DNA of 64,000 nt from positions 11,747,516 to 11,811,515 of the forward strand of contig WARS01000011.1 of assembly GCA_008933995.1 (NCBI GenBank), given 5' to 3'. Of this stretch, positions 6,621 to 57,611 are shown piece by piece. The translations under genes were made by a program, and so were the position numbers. The notes beneath the pieces were generated by a model. That model searched no databases. It was given only the letters and a program-made list of their open reading frames with translations, and had not been told where the DNA came from. The stretch's first letter is position 1. Every line of letters starts with the position of its first letter. The DNA comes from Datnioides undecimradiatus (taxonomy: Eukaryota; Chordata; Actinopteri; Lobotiformes; Datnioididae).

Positions 6621-7829
6621 TGGCTATAAACCTCTGTCAAGTCCTGTTAAGTTATTATACTTTCAAAAATGCGTTTCTGCTCACAGACTGTCAGCGTATT
6701 TCTTATCGGCTCAGTGAATCTGAGTCTTTACTGACTCCTCTTACTAAGTGCTGAGGGCCATCCAAGATGAGTTTAAATATCTGAACTGACAGCACAGCTG
6801 GAAAGCCTTGTTTCATACCATAAACTGCAATGACAGTATTCAATTTAGATTTTTTTTTTTTTTTTAAATGCCATATTTTGCACGGCAGCTGGTGAAGATA
6901 ACAGTACAGCAGGCACAGTGGTAAAATCCCTAGCTGGGTGAAAGAGGGGTAAGATTCAGAAATGAGGTGCGAGTAACAGCAGCGACAGATGAGTTGACCT
7001 GAGTAAAGCCTCCTGCACTGGGAGGCGGCAGCCATGAATTACTTTGCAGAGCTGGATGGATGAACTGACACCTGTGCAGAGGGTCAAGGCAGAAACCCGC
7101 TATCAAACCTCCTGCAGCACCAGAAAATAACCAAGCAGATCCACTCTACACAAACTAGTCATGATTCATTAATACAACTCGAATTATCATCACCATCGTG
7201 CTATTCTTAGTATTAATGGTGTAATGAATAACATATGTTTGCTGTCGTAGAACTTATATTTTAAGACAGATTACGCAATTATGCAACATATGCATAATTC
7301 ATGTACATCTGTGCCTTTGTAAACCATAATGATGATAATTTTTTTCTGTGAGCATGTAGGTCGCAATCAGTCACTGAAGTGCGGGCTCCAGAATAAACAC
7401 CTGTGAGTTGATCCACCATCTTGTCCTCATATGTATGAATGTGATATGTTGCATCTGCTTGGTGTCTTACTGGTTTATGTTCGTGCATATTCTGCAGTGG
7501 ACATTCATCTGCAAATAGCATTAAGCAGGTTTTGTGTTTACACAAATGGCATGTTAGTCCAGATGCTGACAGTATTGGAGAAAATGACACACCACAATGT
7601 CCTGGCGGGTCACTATTGTAAGGACATGCAAACAGCCAAAGTGCTGAGTTGCTTGGTCAATAACATCCTCTGTTTAAATATACAAATCATGTAGAAATCC
7701 GCTGAAAACTACAAACACTCCTGAAAACCTGGAAACTTCCCCATGGTGACAAGATACAGCTGGCAAGACAGGGATCTTGAAATCATTCAGTAAACAGCAA
7801 CAGACTGCTTAACGGTGCAGATTTAGGAG

Positions 7830-12738: not shown

Positions 12739-13064
12739 TATATTATGAATTCTGCTTCAGAATTATTTTCCTAAAACGTACATAATTTCCAGTTAAACAC
12801 AAGTAACTCGGGGAAAACAGAAACAGTGTGACGCTGAAAAATAAGTGTTTCGTGTGACTTTTGTTGGAAAGCAGCCCCGTGGCTGCGCGCTGACACTGTG
12901 CGGTTGGAGTAAGCAGGGGCCACCAGGGGCCCTCCTGACTTCAACAGGCAGTCTGTGCCTTTTAGGTGACGGGGAACTGTGTAACATGAGCCGGGATGAA
13001 AACTGTGCGCTGGATCAGGCTGCCAGTGCAGATGCTGTTCGCCAAAGAGAGAGAGAGGAGGCGC

Positions 13065-13694
13065 ATGATGGATCCCGTCCCACTGCTGCTCATCATAGTC
13101 ACATCTCTGCCACTCTGCTCGGCGGTCTACACCGGGCCCCTCCAACCGGAGATCTCCAATGGCACTTTCCATCACTTCTTCGTTCCGGACGGGGATTACG
13201 ACGAGACTGAGGACCCGGAGGAGTGCCAAATGTTGTTTAAATTCTCGGATGTGTATCCGTGTGGGGCCTCTGAAGAGAGGGACTCCGTGGTGCGGGACGA
13301 CTTCATCATCACCAAGCTGCAGGCGGAGGACGCGGCGCGTCTTCTGGAGGGCATCGGCCGGACTGTGGCGCACGACCTGGACGGAGAGGACAGCTACGGC
13401 AAGTTCCTCCAGCGGGAGATCTCCCAGATCGGCGAAGCCTTTTCAAGCGTGGACAAGTCTCTGCAGGAGCTGGAGGTGAAGTTTAAACAAAGTCAGGAAA
13501 CTGAGCTGAGAGAGGAGCAGCAGCTGAACGGCTACGTGATGAAGCAAGTGAGCGACATCAGGGACGCTCTGAGGGCAACCACGGACATCTCTGCGGGACT
13601 TAAAGATAAACACGAGCTGCTGTCTCTCATCATTCGCAGCCATGGTACCAGACTGAGCCGCCTGAAGACAGAGTATCTTAATGTTGGCTCATAG
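13065..13694 (+). CDS. fibin: Fin bud initiation factor homolog (fibin)
   Basis: A single-exon gene for a small secreted protein of 209 residues, close to the 211 of human FIBIN. Zebrafish fibin is linked to pectoral fin bud formation. The start at 13065 gives MMDPVPLLLIIVTSLPLCSA, a clean signal peptide likely cut before VYTGP. An in-frame ATG at 13068 has the better context (A at -3, G at +4). The upstream in-frame ATG at 12996 would add 23 basic residues ahead of the signal peptide and is less likely. Family landmarks are visible: an SNGTFHHFFVPDGDYDE segment (sequon NGT), a conserved DLDGEDSYGKFLQRE block, a helical Glu/Lys-rich middle, and IRSHGTRLSRLKTEYL at the end. It lies downstream of ano3 in the same orientation, as on human 11p14. 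Confidence 0.95.
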   Translation: MMDPVPLLLIIVTSLPLCSAVYTGPLQPEISNGTFHHFFVPDGDYDETEDPEECQMLFKFSDVYPCGASEERDSVVRDDFIITKLQAEDAARLLEGIGRTVAHDLDGEDSYGKFLQREISQIGEAFSSVDKSLQELEVKFKQSQETELREEQQLNGYVMKQVSDIRDALRATTDISAGLKDKHELLSLIIRSHGTRLSRLKTEYLNVGS

Positions 13695-44088: not shown

Positions 44089-45100
44089 TTAGGTCAGTCT
44101 CAGTTTAACTTTGCAGGTTCTCACACTGCGGTTGTCCCACACATACAGAAGTTTTTTGTTGGGATAATATGACAACATAGCCAAGATACCATTTGTGGAT
44201 CTTAAATCAAAGCTTGCATCCTGAGGACTCTCTTTCTTTAAATCAAAGGCATATGTTACTTTTCTGTCTCTGTCATCTGTAAAATACAGCATCCCACATA
44301 CAATGAAAGCATTTCCTGCTTTAGTTGTAGGGTAGTGAGTGTTAATAATTGACTCCAGAGAAAATGTGTCAGGGTTAAGCTTCGCAACCATTGTCTCATA
44401 GTGTGTATCTGATGCAAAAATGACCCACAGCCCATTTTCATCCACAGCAAACTTGAAATATGTCTTGGAGTTGTGGAAAAGATAGGTCAAGTTGTGATAT
44501 CTGCTGTTTGCCATGATCAGAGAGTTTGTTCTCCTGGTGTTCAGGTCAAATCTGTAAAATATTGATCATGAGTAAGTTAAGAAGCTGATTACAAAAGTCA
44601 AAGCTCACACATGACTGAGATCAATAATCAGTCAGTATATAAGCATATATGAGTAAATAAGGCAAGAGCAAAGGCACACACTTACTTTATAAGTCTGTTT
44701 GTTCCTCCATTGTGAAAGTACAGTGACTTCTTGTAAACAACATGACCACAGCCCTGGTAGAACTTGTGGAGGTCTAGAACTTTGTTGCTTTTATTCTGAA
44801 ATGTTGAAATGTCCCTGTGCTCCACCAGAATTCGACCTGGGGAGGAAATGTTTCTGCATAAAATGAACAATAACTCATAAGACACACTCTGTGATGTTTG
44901 GTAGACATCAACATAAAAAGTACCTGAAAAATGCTGAGCCAGCCAGTAACGACCGTCATCCAGCTGTGATGCATCTGACATCCAGGCTCCAAATGTGCTT
45001 TGCATTCTCGTGGCTTTCTCAGAACATTTAATAGCTTTCATAGTGCACTCTGAAGGAATGAAGATGTTAGATGTGCAGACAGACAGACAGACAGACAGAC

Positions 45101-45163
<63 letters not shown>

Positions 45164-48100
45164 CAATTGTTTATACCAGTTCTGGTCCATTTCTCACTGG
45201 TTGTCACATTGATCTTGTTGTTGGTCTGAAGTGGAGGTGAGTCTAAAGAAAATGGAAGAAAAACAAAAGAAAAGGGATTATCACAGTGTTAAAGAATATA
45301 GTGGATGTTTCTTGTCTTTGTAGCCAAAAACTGGTGATCAATGAACTAGTGAATACCAAAACCTAAATATGGTGCACAAGAATGTTTCTTACCACTTTTC
45401 ATGGGTTTATCCATAATATTTGTAGTGTTAATGAGGATGTCTCTCTTATCAGCTTGGTCTACAGAAAGTGAAGCTGTAAAATTTAAAGAGACATATATGA
45501 ACATATATGAGCCCTGTATTTACATATAAACAAAGGCTATGGGATTAAAAAGGTACTGAAACAGTTTCTCACCAGTTTCCTGATCTGTGTCTTGACGTTT
45601 TTCAGAGTCAGTAACTTTATAAACATCTTTGGCTTCATGACCTGTATGTTGTGTTAATAACACTGTGGAAAGAGAGAGATTAGGGAAATTATAATATAAT
45701 AGAATATATTATAATAAGAAATTATGAAGTTAAGATCAAATCTGTGTGTACAAACATTTTAGAGCGCTCCAGTCATTTAGCGCGTCCACATGAAAATATA
45801 CCAACTCTGGAAAATGTTTATTTTACACATCACACACTCGGTACAATTAAATTCTTTTCCAATATAAACAGACAGATAAAAAAGACAGATAAAAAGACTA
45901 TGGGATTAAAAAGGTCCTGAAACAGTTTCTCACCAGTTTCCTGATCTGTGTCTTGATGTTCTTCAGAGCCGGTAACATTTAAAACATCTCTGGCTTCATG
46001 ACCTGGATGTTGTGTTGATAACACCGTGGAAAGGAAGAGATTAAAGACATTTATAATTCAACTGACTTAATGAATTAATACTGGTGATATTTGTACATCA
46101 GCATAATCATAATGATTAAGGATGAGGGCAGGGTTACAAGTTTCTTACCAGTGTCACTGAGCGCATCAATAATGATTCCACTGTTATTGAAGGCATCATT
46201 GCTCTGGTCTGTGGAAAGTGGGTCTGGAAATAGACATAATCCATTACACTGGGGAACAATTTGAAAAAAATTTTCTGTTGAGTTAGATTTTTATGCTGAT
46301 TAAAACTAAAATTGGCATGCTGATTCCAAAATTGCAGTCAGTTTTTTTCTAGCACGTCAAGTTTTTTCTCCACAGCTTACCCTCCAGATAAGCAAAATTC
46401 CACTGATTAGCTGTAGTAGTAGTAGTAGTAGTGTACATATGATGGCTGACTATTGTTGGAGCATCAAACGCGATAGTCCTCAAGTTGAACACTCCAGAAA
46501 GAGCTATAAACGTAAATTTTTACCTTAACTACTTGCACACAATTATAATTACAGTAGCCATATCCTTTGTAAAAACATAATACTGTTAAATAAACATTGC
46601 AGTCATGCCTGTTTCTTTCGTATTTCATTGTATGTCAATATTTGAAAAATTTTATAAAACAAGCACATATCTGTTAAGTACAGTATTTTTCATATGTTTT
46701 AAGAAAACAGGGATCCTATAGTTCAAAAACTTGACGTGATAGAGAAAAACTGAGATCAGTTTTGGATTCCGCACCTAAAAATTAGTTAAAAACAGCTGTC
46801 AGACCTAACTCAACAAAAATTGTGTTCCCCAGTGTTATATAAACTGTTTCAAAGTAACAGCCTCTCACTTTACTCATTATTTAAAACAGAGTGTCTCCTA
46901 CCTGTTGACAGATGTATTGGTAGCTCTGTAACACCCTCTGTGCTCCAGTCATTTAGAGTGTCCACATGCAATGATACCAACTCTGGAAAATGTTTATTTT
47001 ACACATCACACACTCAGCACAATTACATTCTTTTCTATTATAAACAAAGACTATGGGATTAAAAAGGTCCTGAAACAGTTTCTCACCAGTTTCCTGATCT
47101 GTGTCTTGACGTTCTTCAGAGCTGGTAACATTTAAAACATCTCTGGCTTCATGACCTGGATGTTGTGTTGATAACACTGTGGAAAGGAAGAGATTAAAGA
47201 CATTTATTAAGAAATTACAAACTTAAGATCAAATCCGCGTGTACCAACATTTTAGAGAATGAGTCCCAGAGTCTTCTACCTGTTAATAAATCAACTGAGG
47301 CCTCCGTCACAACCTCTGCGCTGGTTTCAATCCACGTGCCAGGTTTGTAGTCTGGACGAGGTGACACCAACTCTGACACAGAATTTAGATGACCTTATAT
47401 TTTATAACTGATCCTGCCACTTTGTGGTCTCACAAACTCATCAAAACTATTTTTTAATCAATACAAACCATTAATATTTTTACCAATTAAGTCTTCCTGC
47501 CACTCAAAATGTTTGGTCAGTTGCTGATTTTGTGTTTTGTTTTACCACTTTTCATGGGAGTATCAGTGATGTTTCCATTGTCCTTGAACGTATCACTGTC
47601 TTGTACTTGAACCTGGTCTGGAGGACGTAGGGCTGAAGAGTGAAAAAAAGACATGATGTAACATTAACAAACATTCATGGTGTTGTCTGGCAGCACCTTT
47701 AATTAGAAAAGGAGAGCACCTAACATATAATTCAAAACACAGTTAATACCTGTTAATAATACGATTGGTGCCTCTGTAACATTCTCCGTGTTGGTATCAT
47801 TCAAGCTGTCGAGGCTGAACACTGGATGAACTGATGCTAGAAAGTCAGAAACAATAATAAAGCTAAACATGTTTTTTGAAAAAACTAGGTACAATCTGCC
47901 AATGGCTTTTTTGTCTGCTCAGAAGAGTCAGTTACCTGTTCCCACAGTTGTGTGTCTTTAGGTGTTTAAGTCAGTAACATGATACATCTCTGCTATCATC
48001 AGTTGGATGTGGTGCTGGTGAGTCTGTGCAAATAAGGTGAGTTTCAATTTGAAATTATATACAGATGTTGAATATTATCAAAACTTTAAGTCTAAATTCA

Positions 48101-51100
48101 GCAGAAGCTCATTATAAAGATCATTCATCCAGACAATTCATTGCTATCTAACTAATTTAAATCCTAAACTCTCAAAGTTTACTGACCAGTTTTTGCCCAG
48201 TTGTAATATATTTCCTTTAACCCTTAGAATTATTAAATCTTCGATCAGCATAATGATTAAGGATGAGGGCAGGATTACCAAGTTTCTTACCAGTGTCACT
48301 GAAGCATCAATAATAATTCCACTGTTATTGAAGCATCATTATCTGGTCTGTGGAAAGTGGGTCTGAAATAGACATAATCCATTATATAAACTGTTTTCAA
48401 AGTAACAGCCTCTCACTTTACTCATTATTTAAAACAGAATGTCCTACCTGTTGACAGATGTATTGAGTAGCTCTGTAACTTTCCCTCTATTATCAGTCAT
48501 TTAGAGTGTCCCACATGCAATGATACCAACTCTGAAAATGTTTATTTACACATCACACACTCACTTTAATTACATTCTTTTCTAGTATAAACAAAGACTA
48601 TGGGATTAAAAAGGTCCTGAAACAGTTTCTCACCAGTTTCTTGATCTGTGTCTTGACGTTCTTCAGAGCTGGTAACATTTAAAACATCTCTGGCTTCATG
48701 ACCTGGATGTTGTGTTGATAACACTGTGGAAAGGAAGGAATTAAAGACATTTGTTAGAAATTACGAACTTAGATCAAATCGATGGCGCAACATTTTTGAG
48801 AATGAGTCCCAGAACCTTCTACTGTTAATAAATCAGCAGGGCCTCCGTCTAACCTCCGTGCTGGTTTCAATCCGTGCCAGGTTGTAGTCTGGACGAGGTG
48901 ACACCAACTCTGACACAGAATTTAGATGACCTTATTTTATAATGATCCTGCCACTTTGTGGTCTCTAAACTCATCAAAACTATTTTTTAATCCAATACAA
49001 ACCATTCATATTTTTTACCAATTAATTTCCTGCCACTCAAAATGTTTGGTCAGTTGCTTTGATTTTTGTGTTTTGTTTTACCACTTTTCATGGGAGTATC
49101 AGTGATGTTTCCATTGTCCTTGAGCGATATCACTATCTTGTACTTGAACCTGGTCTGGGCGTAGGGCTGAAAAAGAGTGAAAAAAAGACATGATGTAACA
49201 TTAACAAACATTCATGGTGTTGTCTGGCAGCCTTTTATTGAATTAGAAAAAGGAGAGCACCTAACATATAATTCAAAACACAGTTAATACCTGTTAATAA
49301 TACGATTGGTGCCTCTGTAACATTCTCCGTGTTGGTATCATTCAAGCTGTCGAGGCTGAACACTGGATGAACTGATGCTAGAAAGTCAGTAGAAAAGTGA
49401 GTACAGACTTAAATTTTTAATTAGGAATGACAATAATGTCTTCCTTCCACTCAAAACAGTCGCTTACCTGATTCAACATTTGGGTCTTTAGGTGTTTCAG
49501 ACTCAAAGACTTTTCTGCTATCATCAGCTTGATGTGGTATTGTTGAGTCTGTGGAAATAAAGGTGAGTTTTACACAGAGGCACCGGTGCCTATAATCTTA
49601 GCCATTAACTCTTATAATTGTTGTAAAATGTTAACTTTCTTCCTACCAGTCTGATTAATTGTGGAGCTGCTGACGTTTCCTGGCTCAGTTTCATTGACAT
49701 GCTCCAAGGTCAGAACAGGAGCTGAATCTAAAAATAAAGAGCAAAATAAAAGTAGAAACTACAGACTTTAATGAGAGACTCTCAAATGCACATGAAAACC
49801 TTACTTTGACTTATCCTAATCAAATATTAAAGTTAATGCACAACATTTCACGCTGAAAGATTTTCCCCATGTAGAACTGAAAAGGTGCCAGTGCTTTGTG
49901 CTTTTGAGACATATGCGATCATTTTATGAGCTGATTTCAGTATTTTTAGACTCAATTAATTTAAGTTAGACTATGACGTCAATAAATAAATAAACATTCC
50001 CTAACCATAGCTGTCAAGTGTCGGCGAAAAAGCATTTTGACCCTATTGTCGGGAAGTATCATTTAGAAACAATACAATTACATGGTCAACTGAGGTAAGG
50101 TTCTCACCTGTCAACATGTTGGTTTGGTGGATTTGTTGTCTGACTGTCTTCTTTCTCACTTTATTAAAATTCCTAGTCAAACAGGGTGGACCAGGTGGAC
50201 CAGGGGGACCTGGTGGACCCCTTGGACCAGGAGGACCTTCAAATATACACATAAAGTAACAAGAAGTCAGATGTGTAAAAGTCACATTGGAAACAACACA
50301 GTTGGTGAATGACATAGTCTGTCAACAACAACAACAACAATAAAAGAACAACAGAAAAACACTACAGTGGATTACTTCATTTCTCCTGATATGGCATTAT
50401 TCATATGTGACTTTAGAGAGAAACTTTGACCGTAATCACTGTTTCCAACTTCAACTTTAACACTTTTTAGCACAAATAAGAAGATGTATGCAGAAGTTTT
50501 TGCTCAGTTGAATAAAATCAGAGTAAAACAACATAGTGGTCATCTTATTATTCCTGGAAGATCAACTGTATGAAAATATATAAGAATCTCAGAAAATGAA
50601 ATGCACATTTTGTAAAACAGCTTCCCCAATGAAATGTGTAATGTAACTATTGTACAAAGTGATGTTTCCTCTGTTAGTTACATTATTCATAAAGGTGTTT
50701 TCATCTCTCACCCTCAGTGAGAACGTCACTGTCAGTTTTGTTTTTCAGGTGGACAGGCCCAGGGTCTCCTTTAGGTCCTGGTTCTCCTCTTTCACCGGGG
50801 GGTCCTAGTCATTGAAAGGTCATTACTTTAAACCACCGAGCTGAAATGGAAACTTAAAACAGGATGATCATGTGACTATTATTGTGGGACTTTGGTGATT
50901 CTGAGCTAGACAGAAGTCACACAACACAAACTGATTGACTGAGGCAGCAAAGGACCAAAAACTGCTGTTCTGTGGGGTTAAATGACTGTTTTTGTCAAAC
51001 AAGTCTGGTAGATTTCAAGAGAACAACATAAAGACTTCAGCTTCCTGTAAGTGAGCGAAGTGAAGCTTTCACTTTGTTTTATAAACAGTATACACTTTAA

Positions 51101-53232
51101 CTGATATTGGATTTTTATTAGGTGGGCCTGTTTTTTAGGTGGCTACAATAATCCTGCCGCATCTCCAAACTGGGGGCGTGTCGACTGCCATCTACTGTAG
51201 TTATTACACTGATTCTGGGTAAAAAACAAAAACGTATATAATCCAACTTATAAAAACAAAATATCCCTTTAGATATAATCAAGCTGGTCTGTGATGCTGT
51301 CAAGAGTGAAACGTCCCAACCAACAAGTGAAAGATTAAAACTTTTACTCTTAAACTCTTTATTCTTTACATTATGGCTCAAACAACAACAACAAACCAGC
51401 ATGACTCAGGTGTCCAGTAAATATTTTCCAGCTTAATCAAACATGTTTCTAACGTCGCAGCTTTGGACAAAGTCTTTTGTAGACAGCCAGTGGGAACCTC
51501 GTGTTGTGTAACTGGGGCTGAACAATGATAGACTGTTTGAAACTTGTTACTGGCTACAGTTTATGGTTGATCTTGTGCCCACAACATAGACAGTTAGTCT
51601 CCAGGCAGAAGTTAGCAGATCTCTAAAACAAAACAGATCTCTCACCTCTTCTTCCTCGTTTCCCCTCCGGCCCGGGCACACCCTGTGGTCCTGGTGAACC
51701 AGCTCTACCAGGCAAACCTAACAGGCAAACATATTGTGACTGTAGCAACAGATTCAGCTTAGTTTAAGTAATTCATGCAGATAATTAAAGTATTTTACCT
51801 GGTGGTCCAGGTGGGCCTGGGTAAAAAAAAATAAAAACACAGAACATTTAGCACAAATCAAACACAGAAGAACCATAAACTTTAAAAGTCGAGCTGCTGG
51901 CATTGAAAATATTTAGGAAGTGCACCTGATAAACAAACTCCTCTGGAGCTGTTACACAGCTCTATGAAAGCTTTGACCTGAAATAAAGAACAACAGAGAG
52001 AAAAAGCAGCTGAGGTCAGTGCGACACCTGCAATATCTGTGAGCTTTCTGATGTTGAACATTTAGCTTTTTAATGTAAAGCACCTTTTCAAATGTAACTG
52101 TCATTTTGTCTCAATTTGACATTTTCCTAGTTTTAGAGCTAAAAAGATTAGCTGACTTACCGATCTGCCAGTGGGCACATTATTAACGGGTAACAATGCT
52201 GATAAACGGGAAATCATTTGTGGTTTTTTAAGACAAACATTCATATCTTCTGCCTCTTAAATGTAATTCTTTGTTAATTTTATGAATATATTTGTTTTTG
52301 AGATTGTTGGTCAGACAAAACAAGTAGTTTGTAGACATAATCTTGTGCTTTGGGAACTGGAGTTTTTCTAAGATTTCAGAGCTTAAACAACGAATCCAGG
52401 AAATAATAATCAGGAGATTAATTGGTGATGAAAATAAGCCTTAATTTATTGTTTGTAATTGCTAATAAATTAGGTAAATAATGGGCTAAAACTGCACTTT
52501 TTTTGTAAAAGACCTATGTGTCGCTGATAAATGTGCTGCCCTCAGTTACAGTATGTGACAGTAGCACCCTCTGAAAAAATCACATTTCCCAGCAGATAGA
52601 GTTGTGGGAGGAGCAGCCAGCAGTCACGCTGCTCAAGTGTTTACCTAGGAAACCTTCAGTGGAAAACCAGACCTTATATTGATCTTTAAAACAGACTGTG
52701 GGATTCTTTGCATTACACAGGCATGCTTGTAATCCCAAAAGGGAAAAGAGAGGAAATGTTTCTATTAAAGATGATGACAAATACTTGTTGATTGCTCTCC
52801 TGGTTCTCTCTCATAAGAACATAATGAAAATGTCATAAATGTCTGTTTTCAGATATTTGTCAAACACAAAAGAAGTAAAGTGTCTAAAATATTCTCAGAC
52901 AGAGCTTTTCAGTGTCTTACAGGAACCATGGAGTATGTCATCAGCATCAGCATATCCTTCTCGTCTTTGCTTTGTGTTGGTTCTCCCTCCTGGTTTCTTC
53001 TGCTGCGATGAAACTTCTTCAGCTCTCCTGCCTCTCGGAGCTCCACTGGCAGCCTGCAGCTCTGCGACAGCACCTGCATCTGTGCGTCCAACCTGAGCAG
53101 CTCCTCCGTCAGCTCTCTCTGTCGAACCAGCAGGAGCACCAAACCTGTCGATATCAGCAGCAGCAGCACGCACATCCCCACCAGCAGCACTTTCCACACC
53201 AGGAGAACTCCACTCTTCTCCTTCATGTTCAT
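44089..53232 (-). CDS. gldn: Gliomedin with expanded stalk
   Basis: Gliomedin is a type II membrane and shed matrix protein that gathers axonal neurofascin/NrCAM at nodes of Ranvier. Exon 1 (53232-52921) encodes a short cytosolic tail, a membrane helix (about 8-36), a furin-type site RSRR (76-79) and DMLMLMTYSMVP, all as in human GLDN. Collagen-like Gly-X-Y exons follow: 51977-51926, 51816-51799 (18 nt), 51717-51646, 50804-50712 and 50236-50108. Then comes a stalk array (49727-45177, separate entry) and the olfactomedin domain in 45049-44924, 44836-44686 and 44551-44089 (GCGHVVYKKSLYFHNGG, TYFKFAVDENGLWVIFAS, YPTTKAGNAFIVCGMLYFTD). Using only intact exons the product would be about 800-835 residues against 551 in human. 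ATGs at 53226 and 53310 are alternative starts. Next to cyp19a1 and ap4e1, as on human 15q21. Confidence 0.9.
45076..45163 (+). repeat. Compound GACA/GATA microsatellite in a gldn intron
   Basis: GACA units to about 45101, then about 15 GATA units, between the last stalk exon and the first olfactomedin exon. Confidence 0.95.
45934..46023 (-). pseudogene. Stalk exon copy with a lost splice acceptor
   Basis: This 90-nt copy of the 'e' exon family is open and keeps its GTGAGA donor, but the acceptor reads CACGG where sister copies have CACAG. It would be skipped unless a non-standard site is used. A fused relic of the 'f' exon lies beside it at about 45768-45831, lacking a donor. Confidence 0.6.
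46110..47846 (-). repeat. Tandem duplication within gldn, copy A
   Basis: From CATCAGCATAAT...ATGATTAAGGATGAGGG at the left to GATGCTAGAAAGTCAG at the right, this block repeats in the same order and orientation at 48243-49387. It carries six intact stalk exons and a transposon (46247-46834) absent from copy B. Without the transposon its length is about 1.15 kb, equal to copy B. Confidence 0.85.
46247..46834. mobile_element. 588-bp DNA transposon with terminal inverted repeats, CACTA/EnSpm-like (non-autonomous)
   Basis: Ends are CACTGGGGAACA and TGTTCCCCAGTG, with wider imperfect inversion of about 150 bp (GTTGAGTTAG and CACGTCAAGTTTTT occur in both arms). It is flanked by TTA on both sides (46244-46246, 46835-46837). 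Copy B of the surrounding duplication reads CCATTATATAAAC without the insert, giving a direct empty site and confirming a TTA duplication. A three-base target and CACTG ends fit CACTA/EnSpm; PIF-Harbinger, which also uses TTA, is the alternative. No transposase. Confidence 0.8.
48243..49387 (-). pseudogene. Tandem duplication within gldn, copy B (indel-rich)
   Basis: Second copy of block 46110-47846. Only exons 48723-48634 ('e') and 49377-49291 ('b') stay open. The copies of exons g (about 48297-48370), f (about 48450-48535), d (about 48825-48916) and c (49166-49082, 85 nt instead of 87) carry one- or two-base indels that break frame. Indels are as frequent in the introns as in the exons while substitutions are few. 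Upstream of it another exon copy (48023-47936, 88 nt) is also out of frame. Confidence 0.7.
50237..52920 (-). other. Introns between the gldn collagen exons
   Basis: Introns of 475, 841, 81, 109 and 943 bp separate the collagen-type exons. Nothing recognisable lies in the longer ones (50237-50711, 50805-51645, 51978-52920); an open frame at 51118-51402 (-) has no homology I recognise. Confidence 0.45.
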
Positions 53233-55282: not shown

Positions 55283-57611
55283 ATGAATGGGATGCTGCCG
55301 CTGGAGACGCTCACTGTCAGCCCCATGGTGGCTGACACAGTGTGTGAAGTCACCACCGTTCTCCTTCTCCTGCTGCTGCTGCTGCTCCTCACTGCCTGGA
55401 GCCGAACAAACCACTCACCTATACCAGGTAAGAGACGTCACAGCTGCTGCTCTATCACATAACTTATAAGTGTTTTGTGCTGTGAATCATCAACATCACA
55501 TTAGTGACGAAAGTTTATAAATTTCTGTTTTCACTTGTCCCTCAGCACACATTAAAGCAACCTGGGATCTATCATGTCTTAAATCATCACTTGTCCTTTC
55601 TTTCAGGCCCTTCCTTCTGGGCAGGACTCGGTCCAGTCCTCACCTACAGCAGATTCATCTGGACTGGGATAGGAACAGCAAGCAACTACTACAACAAGAA
55701 GTACGGCAGCATTGTGCGTGTCTGGATTAACAGCGAGGAGACCATCATTCTGAGCGGGTGGGTCCTCTGATATAAAACTCTTTACAGTTTGCAGCGCTAA
55801 GGTAAAGCCTGGATTATCTTGCAGGTCTTCAGCAGTGTATCATGTTCTGAGGAGCGCCAACTACACAGCTAGATTCGGGAGCAAAACCGGGTTGGAGTGT
55901 ATTGGGATGGAAGGGAGGGGGATCATTTTCAACAGCGACGTTGTGCTCTGGAAAAAAGTGAGGACGTATTTTTCTAAAGGTGAGCATTCATCAAATGCGG
56001 AGCAGTGAGTTAGAGCATGTGGTGCATTATTTCACCTCTTTGTCAACACATTTCCACATATCTAACAAGCTAAGAAAACTGGTCCCACCCCTGCTGAAAC
56101 AATGGCTGATGGTTGTTGTTCAGCTCTGTCAGGCCCCAGCCTACAGAGGACAGTGGGAGTCTGTGTGAGCGCCACAGCCAAACACCTGGACCGCCTGCAG
56201 GAAATGACCGACTCCTCCGGACATGTAGACTCTCTCAATCTGCTCAGAGCCATAGTGGTGGATATCTCGAACAGGCTTTTCCTCAGGGTGCCGCTCAATG
56301 GTTAGCCACATTCACTATCAGTATATAATGTTTTCCAGCTGTTGCAGTGATGCCTGCAGCCACTGACTCCTGTTTTTCGCTCCTGTGCAACTCAGAAAAG
56401 GAACTGCTGATGAAAATCCAAAGCTACTTTGAGACCTGGCAAACGGTTCTAATAAAGCCTGAAATATTCTTCAAGATTGGATGGCTGTACAACAAGCACA
56501 GGAGAGCAGCGTAAGATCCTCACACATGGCAATGATTCAACATCTCGCTTGCAATTTCTTTAGCCTAACCACTGTGCTGCTTTTTGTGCCAACAGGCAGG
56601 AGCTGCAGGATGTGATGGAGAACCTTCTTGAAATCAAAAGAAAGATTATAAATGAGTCTGAGAAGTTGGACAATGATTTTGACTTTGCCACAGAGCTCAT
56701 CTTTGCTCAGGTTTGTGTCCTCTGATGAATCTACAGAGGTGGTGTCATATGTTTGCCGCATACCTGACATTTTCTTTTGAACAGAACCACGGAGAGCTTT
56801 CAGCCAATAACGTCAGGCAGTGTGTGCTGGAGATGGTGATTGCTGCTCCTGACACACTTTCCATCAGCCTCTTCTTCATGCTGATGCTGCTGAAACAAAA
56901 CCCAGACGTAGAGCTGAGGATAGTGGAAGAGATGAATACTGTCTTGAGTAAGTGCATTTGTGTAGATTTACACTTTCACTCTACGACAGCTAGAAATGAA
57001 ACTATCCCAGCACACAATGAATGCTGCAATTTCATTTCTAGGTGAGAAAGGTGCTGAAAACATTGATTATCAGAGTTTGAAAGTGCTGGAGAGTTTCATC
57101 AATGAGTCTCTGAGGTTTCATCCTGTGGTTGATTTCACGATGCGAAAAGCTCTGGAAGACGATACAATTGAAGGCATTAAAATTGCAAAAGGAACCAACA
57201 TCATTCTCAACATTGGACTCATGCATAAGTCTGAGTTCTTCCCAAAACCCAAAGAGTTCAGCCTGACCAACTTTGACAAAACAGTAAGTTGTTGCAACAA
57301 CATGAGGCTCCTAAAAAGAAACAAAAACCAACAGTTGAGTCTTTACCTCCTCTGTCTGGCAGGTGCCCAATCGTTTCTTCCAGCCATTCGGCTGTGGGCC
57401 TCGCTCCTGCGTGGGCAAACACATCGCCATGGTGATGATGAAGGCCATCCTGGTCACGCTGTTGTCTCGTTATACTGTGTGTCCTCGCCAAGGCTGCACC
57501 CTCAACAGCATCAGGCAGACCAACAACCTGTCGCAGCAGCCCGTGGAGGATGAGCACAGCCTGGCCATGCGCTTTATTCCTCGAATACAACCTCAACAGA
57601 GTCCGCACTGA
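55283..57611 (+). CDS. cyp19a1b: Aromatase, brain type (cytochrome P450 19A1b)
   Basis: Nine coding exons join into 503 residues, the same length as human CYP19A1: 55283-55427, 55607-55757, 55825-55979, 56124-56300, 56396-56510, 56596-56710, 56785-56947, 57042-57283 and 57363-57611. Aromatase converts androgens to oestrogens in the ER membrane. Visible parts are a Leu-rich membrane anchor after the start, I-helix AAPDT (306-310), the ExxR pair Glu362/Arg365, and haem loop [10 protein letters not shown] with ligand Cys437, at human numbering. Stretches such as [20 protein letters not shown] and [19 protein letters not shown] resemble fish brain aromatase more than the ovarian form, and the ERE, leader exon and spi1/prc1 neighbourhood agree. 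ATG 55292 is a second start candidate. The residue at the exon 2/3 join is Gly (ILSGSSA), where I recall Arg or Lys in relatives. No breaks seen. Confidence 0.95.

Follow-up and report, generated by a model that had tools for sequence, protein, structure and literature searches.

A probable array of small phase 1-1 exons between the collagen and olfactomedin exons of gliomedin in the fish Datnioides undecimradiatus

Gliomedin (GLDN), which has a part in forming nodes of Ranvier, is a transmembrane collagen with a collagen stretch and a C-terminal olfactomedin domain, and in the human protein the spacer between the two is very roughly 50–60 residues long. Cleavage by furin and BMP-1 is reported to release the secreted mammalian form, which trimerises through the collagen stretch and has neurofascin-186 and NrCAM as its binding partners at nodes (PMC3810605, PMC4488277). 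The human olfactomedin domain is placed at amino acids (aa) 300–550 (PMC9267849). The gldn gene of Datnioides undecimradiatus was analyzed in a stretch of 64,000 nucleotides (nt) of contig WARS01000011.1 (assembly GCA_008933995.1), referred to below as the window, where it occupies positions 53232–44089 of the minus strand, with six exons upstream and three olfactomedin exons downstream of a series of small exons. The predicted fish protein resembles gliomedin in its collagen stretch and C-terminal olfactomedin domain, but differs from known gliomedin in up to 363 extra residues, encoded by 13 small exons, between these two parts; its olfactomedin domain starts at residue 594 of 834, unlike that of the human protein, which starts at aa 300 (PMC9267849). 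The most probable reading, to which we give a probability of about 0.68, is that these exons form a genuine phase 1-1 array that grew by block duplication and acts as a flexible, glycosylated spacer.

As read from the genome, the array is a case of tandem exon duplication, a known process, in a known gene. Shuffling of symmetric 1-1 exons occurs in extracellular proteins, and the gldn array shares with it the 1-1 phase and the setting of an extracellular mosaic protein; its modules, however, are only 22–31 residues long, probably unstructured and without a Pfam match, and are not folded domains. Tandem exon duplication as outlined in PMC9013439 likewise places homologous exons in tandem within one gene, but in gldn what is repeated is a block made up of several dissimilar exons together with the introns between them, the product is an extracellular spacer, there are 20 slots, and the intact members are frame-neutral. 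The mutually exclusive arrays of the Dscam type (PMC1397879) are similar in being large and in allowing many isoforms in principle. Unlike these, the gldn array carries no sign of exclusivity in its sequence, and has members that differ in family and length. No description of such an array was found in the titles and abstract openings searched, which represent part of the open-licence literature only.

Twenty small exon slots are found within 4.55 kb of the minus strand (49727–45177), between the last collagen exon, E6 (50236–50108), and the first olfactomedin exon, O1 (45049–44924). In the order of the gene they are as follows, with the number of N-glycosylation sequons where this was recorded.

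49647..49727, minus strand: array exon x1, 81 nt, intact, three sequons (gene model, sequon count)
49468..49548, minus strand: array exon f1, superfamily D, 81 nt, intact (gene model, similarity scores)
49291..49377, minus strand: array exon a1, superfamily A, 87 nt, intact, two sequons, identical to a2 (gene model, similarity scores)
49082..49166, minus strand: array exon b1, 85 nt, broken by indels of 1–2 nt (block alignment)
48821..48909, minus strand: array exon c1, broken by a 1-nt loss at the donor and other indels (block alignment)
48634..48723, minus strand: array exon d1, superfamily D, 90 nt, intact, one sequon (gene model, sequon count)
48444..48531, minus strand: array exon e1, broken by indels (block alignment)
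48291..48362, minus strand: array exon g1, length a multiple of three, broken by stops in frame (block alignment)
47936..48023, minus strand: array exon f2, 88 nt, broken, 74% identical to f1 (exon comparison)
47750..47836, minus strand: array exon a2, 87 nt, intact, two sequons (gene model, sequon count)
47546..47632, minus strand: array exon b2, superfamily B, 87 nt, intact, one sequon (gene model, sequon count, similarity scores)
47280..47372, minus strand: array exon c2, superfamily A, 93 nt, intact (gene model, similarity scores)
47087..47176, minus strand: array exon d2, 90 nt, intact, one sequon (gene model, sequon count)
46902..46982, minus strand: array exon e2, superfamily A, 81 nt, intact (gene model, similarity scores)
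46149..46223, minus strand: array exon g2, superfamily B, 75 nt, intact, one sequon (gene model, sequon count, similarity scores)
45934..46023, minus strand: array exon d3, open, acceptor changed from AG to GG (splice-site inspection)
45740..45806, minus strand: array exon e3, truncated and fused to intron of the c-d type, a recombination scar by sequence comparison
45573..45662, minus strand: array exon d4, 90 nt, intact, zero sequons (gene model, sequon count)
45393..45473, minus strand: array exon h, superfamily B, 81 nt, intact, one sequon (gene model, sequon count, similarity scores)
45177..45242, minus strand: array exon i, 66 nt, intact, one sequon (gene model, sequon count)

Thirteen of the 20 slots are intact: they are 66–93 nt long (in order 81, 81, 87, 90, 87, 87, 93, 90, 81, 75, 90, 81 and 66 nt), always a multiple of three, have AG and GT borders, are in phase 1 at both ends, and lack stops in frame. 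The remaining seven are broken: indels or stops disrupt b1, c1, e1, g1 and f2, the acceptor of d3 is changed, and e3 is truncated. An earlier note, made from the letters of the window alone, had described at least 13 intact short exons and some seven relics between collagen and olfactomedin, all of the intact ones phase 1-1 and frame-neutral, and both the counts and the phases (13 of 13) were recovered here. Joined to the six upstream and three olfactomedin exons, the intact exons yield a single open frame of 834 aa, to which the array contributes 363 codons; with all 13 skipped the frame stays open, at 471 aa. Because every upstream end is a G, the junction codons are stop-free in all 196 possible upstream–downstream pairings, and the frame survives the gain, loss or skipping of any subset of intact exons. 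With this shared G and the 1-1 phase, the length of the encoded segment could drift, or vary by splicing, without harm.

Chance was addressed by scoring acceptors and donors with approximate weight matrices based on general knowledge, and asking whether pairs separated by 60–100 nt enclose an open phase 1 frame; 18 equally long chunks from positions 1–43800 of the window, on both strands, served as controls. At thresholds of 4/3.5 all seven sense pairs are open, compared with none of one antisense pair and none of seven control pairs, the sense pairs representing six of the 13 intact exons, one with a second acceptor. Relaxing the thresholds to 2/2.5 gives open pairs in 10/12 (sense), 0/4 (antisense) and 0/34 (controls), and at 0.5/0.6 the values are 16/26, 0/10 and 14/159 (at most three per chunk), with 11 of the 13 intact exons recovered and e2 and i missed. 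At 5/4.5 five of five sense pairs are open and the controls give none. Duplicate exons are not independent in these counts, to which several families contribute. A chance origin of the array pattern appears very unlikely on this basis.

By its olfactomedin domain the gene is gliomedin, the name it had been given in the earlier note. The best matches of this domain are gliomedin chains (E 3e-62 to 1e-60), followed at 4e-30 by the next family, latrophilin-3, and the closest solved structures are the gliomedin chains 4xav, 5yby and 4d77. Pfam analysis of the 834-aa model detected Collagen (121–168) and then a C-terminal OLF (594–830), with zero matches in the array portion at E up to 0.01. In a search of the genome with the last olfactomedin exon (28 of 28 candidates scored), the gene's own locus was found at 4e-101, and the best of 22 other matches reached 8e-20 at 37% identity; since none is better than this, gliomedin is single in the assembly, where a second copy was looked for and none was found. 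At other loci the match to gliomedin amounts to 31% along the whole length, 35% for separate pieces and 64% for a stretch of 25 residues, and no relatives of the last olfactomedin exon were found in viral contigs. The exons flanking the array are listed below. By eye, E1 shows a hydrophobic segment close to the N terminus, which we presume to be a type II membrane anchor, and an RSRR motif that we take to be a furin-like site.

52921..53232, minus strand: E1, presumed membrane anchor region with putative furin-like RSRR site (gene model; both features by eye)
51926..51977, minus strand: E2, phase 0-1 (gene model)
51799..51816, minus strand: E3, collagen, 18 nt, phase 1-1 (gene model)
51646..51717, minus strand: E4, collagen, phase 1-1 (gene model, Pfam)
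50712..50804, minus strand: E5, collagen, phase 1-1 (gene model, Pfam)
50108..50236, minus strand: E6, last collagen exon, phase 1-1 (gene model)
44924..45049, minus strand: O1, first olfactomedin exon, start phase 1 (gene model, structure match, Pfam)
44686..44836, minus strand: O2, olfactomedin (gene model, structure match)
44089..44551, minus strand: O3, olfactomedin, with the stop codon (gene model, structure match, genome match)

The intron preceding O1 also carries an (AGAT)n microsatellite of about 22 copies (45077–45163) that ends near the O1 acceptor.

The 363 residues encoded by the array include zero cysteine, 23% serine plus threonine, 18.5% aspartate plus glutamate and 6.4% lysine plus arginine, and the charge-hydropathy value of the chain falls on the disordered side. 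Thirteen N-glycosylation sequons are present, compared with 5.0 in shuffled sequences, and this number was reached by two of 5000 shuffles. They are spread over nine of the 13 intact exons (six with one, two with two and one with three; four have none), in keeping with the earlier description of many exons as sequon-bearing. This composition is observed; the expression, splicing, disorder, glycosylation and reach of the segment are inferred. If spliced in, the exons would add up to 363 acidic, cysteine-free, sequon-rich and probably disordered residues, placed after the collagen triple helix and ahead of the olfactomedin propeller, and such a spacer would most likely set the distance of the olfactomedin head from the collagen stem.

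Several observations weigh against a working spacer. Duplicated exons enter the sequon counts, which are therefore not wholly independent; the highest splice thresholds tried (6/5) leave zero sense pairs; and donor scores are low for exons a, b, c and i, as they are for some conserved exons of gldn. Among the copies of exon d, d2 and d4 differ by nine nonsynonymous changes and one synonymous change, that is at 10 of 90 sites, compared with nine of 78 in flanking intron. The other pairs (nonsynonymous, synonymous) are d1/d2 (0, 1), d2/d3 (2, 0), d3/d4 (9, 1) and d1/d4 (9, 2), and on these small counts a coding constraint between d copies is invisible. Such changes fit a spacer in which frame and general character outweigh the letters, so that the exact residues would appear to be of little importance, and they also fit a segment that itself matters little. 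In a rival reading the small exons are unused or rarely used, as a decaying remnant or low-level noise, with the 471-aa form as the working protein; the lack of visible constraint in the d copies, the open frame with all exons skipped and the several weak donors are all compatible with it. Against it stand the 13 of 20 slots that retain frame, borders and openness together, the splice control (seven of seven sense pairs open vs none of seven in control chunks) and the enrichment of sequons, and we consider it unlikely.

When exon similarity was scored at the nucleotide level against mononucleotide shuffles (z), the exons grouped into three superfamilies, D (d, f), A (a, c, e) and B (b, g, h), in line with the few sequence families proposed earlier. 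Unlike members are linked at z 5.0 to 9.5, the pairs d2–d4 and f1–f2 lie above this range, and weaker links (z up to 4.1) tie x1 to both i and a, and tie a to both b and d. The grouping of superfamily B rests on DNA, as its protein scores are weak (b2–g2, z 2.1). The array contains two tandem blocks of seven exons each, f1-a1-b1-c1-d1-e1-g1 and f2-a2-b2-c2-d2-e2-g2, after which come d3-e3, d4-h and i. The blocks are nearly alike over a span that opens just ahead of exon a and closes about 40 nt past exon g, whereas outside this span identity falls to 74% between f1 and f2, 59% in the f-a introns and 48% at 45–110 nt beyond exon g, random pairs giving 47%. The near-identity of a-g between diverged flanks suggests an older block duplication that was later homogenised over a-g, and we infer that gene conversion or unequal exchange was responsible. 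A further trace of exchange is found in e3, where the truncated exon passes straight into c-d intron sequence (the scar matches 47257–47233); the fusion is a scar of between-block recombination inside an exon. The order D-A-B recurs cyclically across the array, a result reached by three of 20000 shuffles when the two c exons, x1 and i are left out and by 283 of 20000 when c is counted as A, but within a single block the order is not significant (0.17). A three-exon D-A-B cassette as the founding unit is only a suggestion.

Another reading is a mutually exclusive cluster, with one array exon per transcript. Its members differ in length and sequence family and sit in ordered blocks, nothing in the sequence forbids joint inclusion, and the intact exons are all symmetric, so we regard exclusive use as highly improbable.

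For the comparison of the two near-identical spans, block A was defined as 49397–48250 and block B as 47856–46108, leaving out an insert.

46246..46835, no strand assigned: 590-base-pair (bp) transposon-like insert at a TA target, carried by block B; the corresponding site in block A is empty (block alignment)

The ends of the insert are inverted, about 100 bp long and 75% alike. Among the matches listed, one transposon end occurs at 94–99% identity in at least 37 other genomic places, and the family looks young because of this similarity. When 46700–48100 was compared with the genome, the best 40 of 806 candidates gave at least 42 matches, five at this locus and 37 to the transposon end; block B without the transposon (46840–48044) gave four, all in this array (three of three candidates scored), and 45177–45400 matched itself only. 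A search for further array exons elsewhere in the window returned 28 matches outside the 20 slots at E up to 1 and the e3 scar at 47257–47233; apart from the scar they were read as chance, the best under lenient scoring being e1 in the last olfactomedin exon (2e-4) and g1 at 7141–7190 (4e-4).

Two blocks this similar might instead be two alleles of one block laid in tandem by a false assembly duplication. The exact identity of a1 and a2, identical runs of up to 138 nt and the presence of the transposon in one copy only are what alleles might show. However, the neighbours of the blocks differ (74% for f1/f2, 59% for the f-a introns, and beyond g 48% vs the random 47%). The flanks are not shared as alleles would share them, and because of this difference allelic duplication was rejected; it is decidedly unlikely.

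The broken copies pose a different question. Blocks A and B differ by 37 substitutions and 40 gap events, of which 36 are gaps of 1–2 nt. In 26 of the 40 events A lacks bases and in 14 it has additional ones; 20 of the 40 are of homopolymer type. The ratio of substitutions to gaps is 13:1 for B/C, 14:4 for B/D and 16:4 for C/D, or 43:9 pooled, and differs from that of A/B with a Fisher p of 8e-5 for the pooled pairs, which share copies and are not independent, and of 0.002 for B/C alone. A/C (18:5) and A/D (17:2) are not unlike the other pairs; both comparisons cover only the d region, in which A is cleaner. Exons a1 and d1 together carry one change. Gaps between A and B number 25 in 660 columns of intron and 15 in 523 of exon. 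Where a third copy gives polarity, A has six substitutions and two gaps and B one substitution, a count that sets aside end overhangs (a third A gap column and four B gap columns). The surplus of 1–2 nt indels in block A, found in introns and exons alike, suggests errors of assembly more than decay, and for b1, c1, e1 and g1 a consensus error of the unpolished long-read type is more likely than decay. Intact exons may consequently be undercounted. The other three, f2, d3 and e3, look real as relics, so that of the seven relics proposed in the earlier note these would stand while the four in block A are more likely errors.

Alternatively, the array may be real and all seven broken slots, those four of block A among them, true relics of steady exon birth and death. 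The divergence of f2 from f1 (74% identity), the altered acceptor of d3 and the deletion scar of e3 have the appearance of relics, and since exon d changes at about the pace of flanking intron, decay is to be expected. In addition, the patchiness of A/B identity is not significant by itself (longest run 138, compared with 148 as the largest in 2000 shuffles), and only 20 of the 40 gaps are of homopolymer type. The contrast between 37:40 for A/B and 43:9 pooled, a gap density as high in intron as in exon, and the polarity given by the third copy all speak against it, leaving universal decay somewhat unlikely. Elsewhere in the window, an open frame of 234 codons from stop to stop (12990–13694), which resembles fibin, is intact, a hint that unique sequence in the window is accurate.

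A genuine gldn array would have grown as multi-exon blocks were duplicated in tandem, deleted and homogenised; the homologies between blocks and the recombination scar are seen directly, and the type of exchange is conjectured. Of the exon decay that the array seems to show, the portion that falls in block copy A is probably sequence error in the assembly. The earlier proposal of ongoing array growth that tunes spacer length is upheld for growth, by block duplication, and not for tuning, given that no residue constraint is visible between d copies. It could further be speculated that the array is a length dial across populations and tissues, with copy number varying among individuals and fish lineages, splicing giving zero to more than 360 residues, and exon dosage setting the reach and glycan load of nodal or gonadal gliomedin; we think this improbable.

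A p450 exon (Pfam, 56683–57553) adjoins gldn on the opposite strand; we take it to be aromatase, which would fit the human CYP19A1-GLDN neighbourhood. In bluefin tuna, gldn is reported to rise in female gonads during differentiation (PMC10449831), which implies that considering the fish gene in nerve alone may be too restrictive. With the p450 neighbour and this gonadal rise (PMC10449831) in mind, shared gonadal regulation could be asked about.

One general consequence is that what looks like exon decay in a recently duplicated block can stem from assembly error. If the array is transcribed, a nerve adhesion protein would gain a long, disordered, glycosylated spacer by block-wise multiplication of exons, whose residues are free to change as its frame, its symmetry and many of its sequons are retained. 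The question of which features a linker has to keep would then become directly testable in one gene across fishes.

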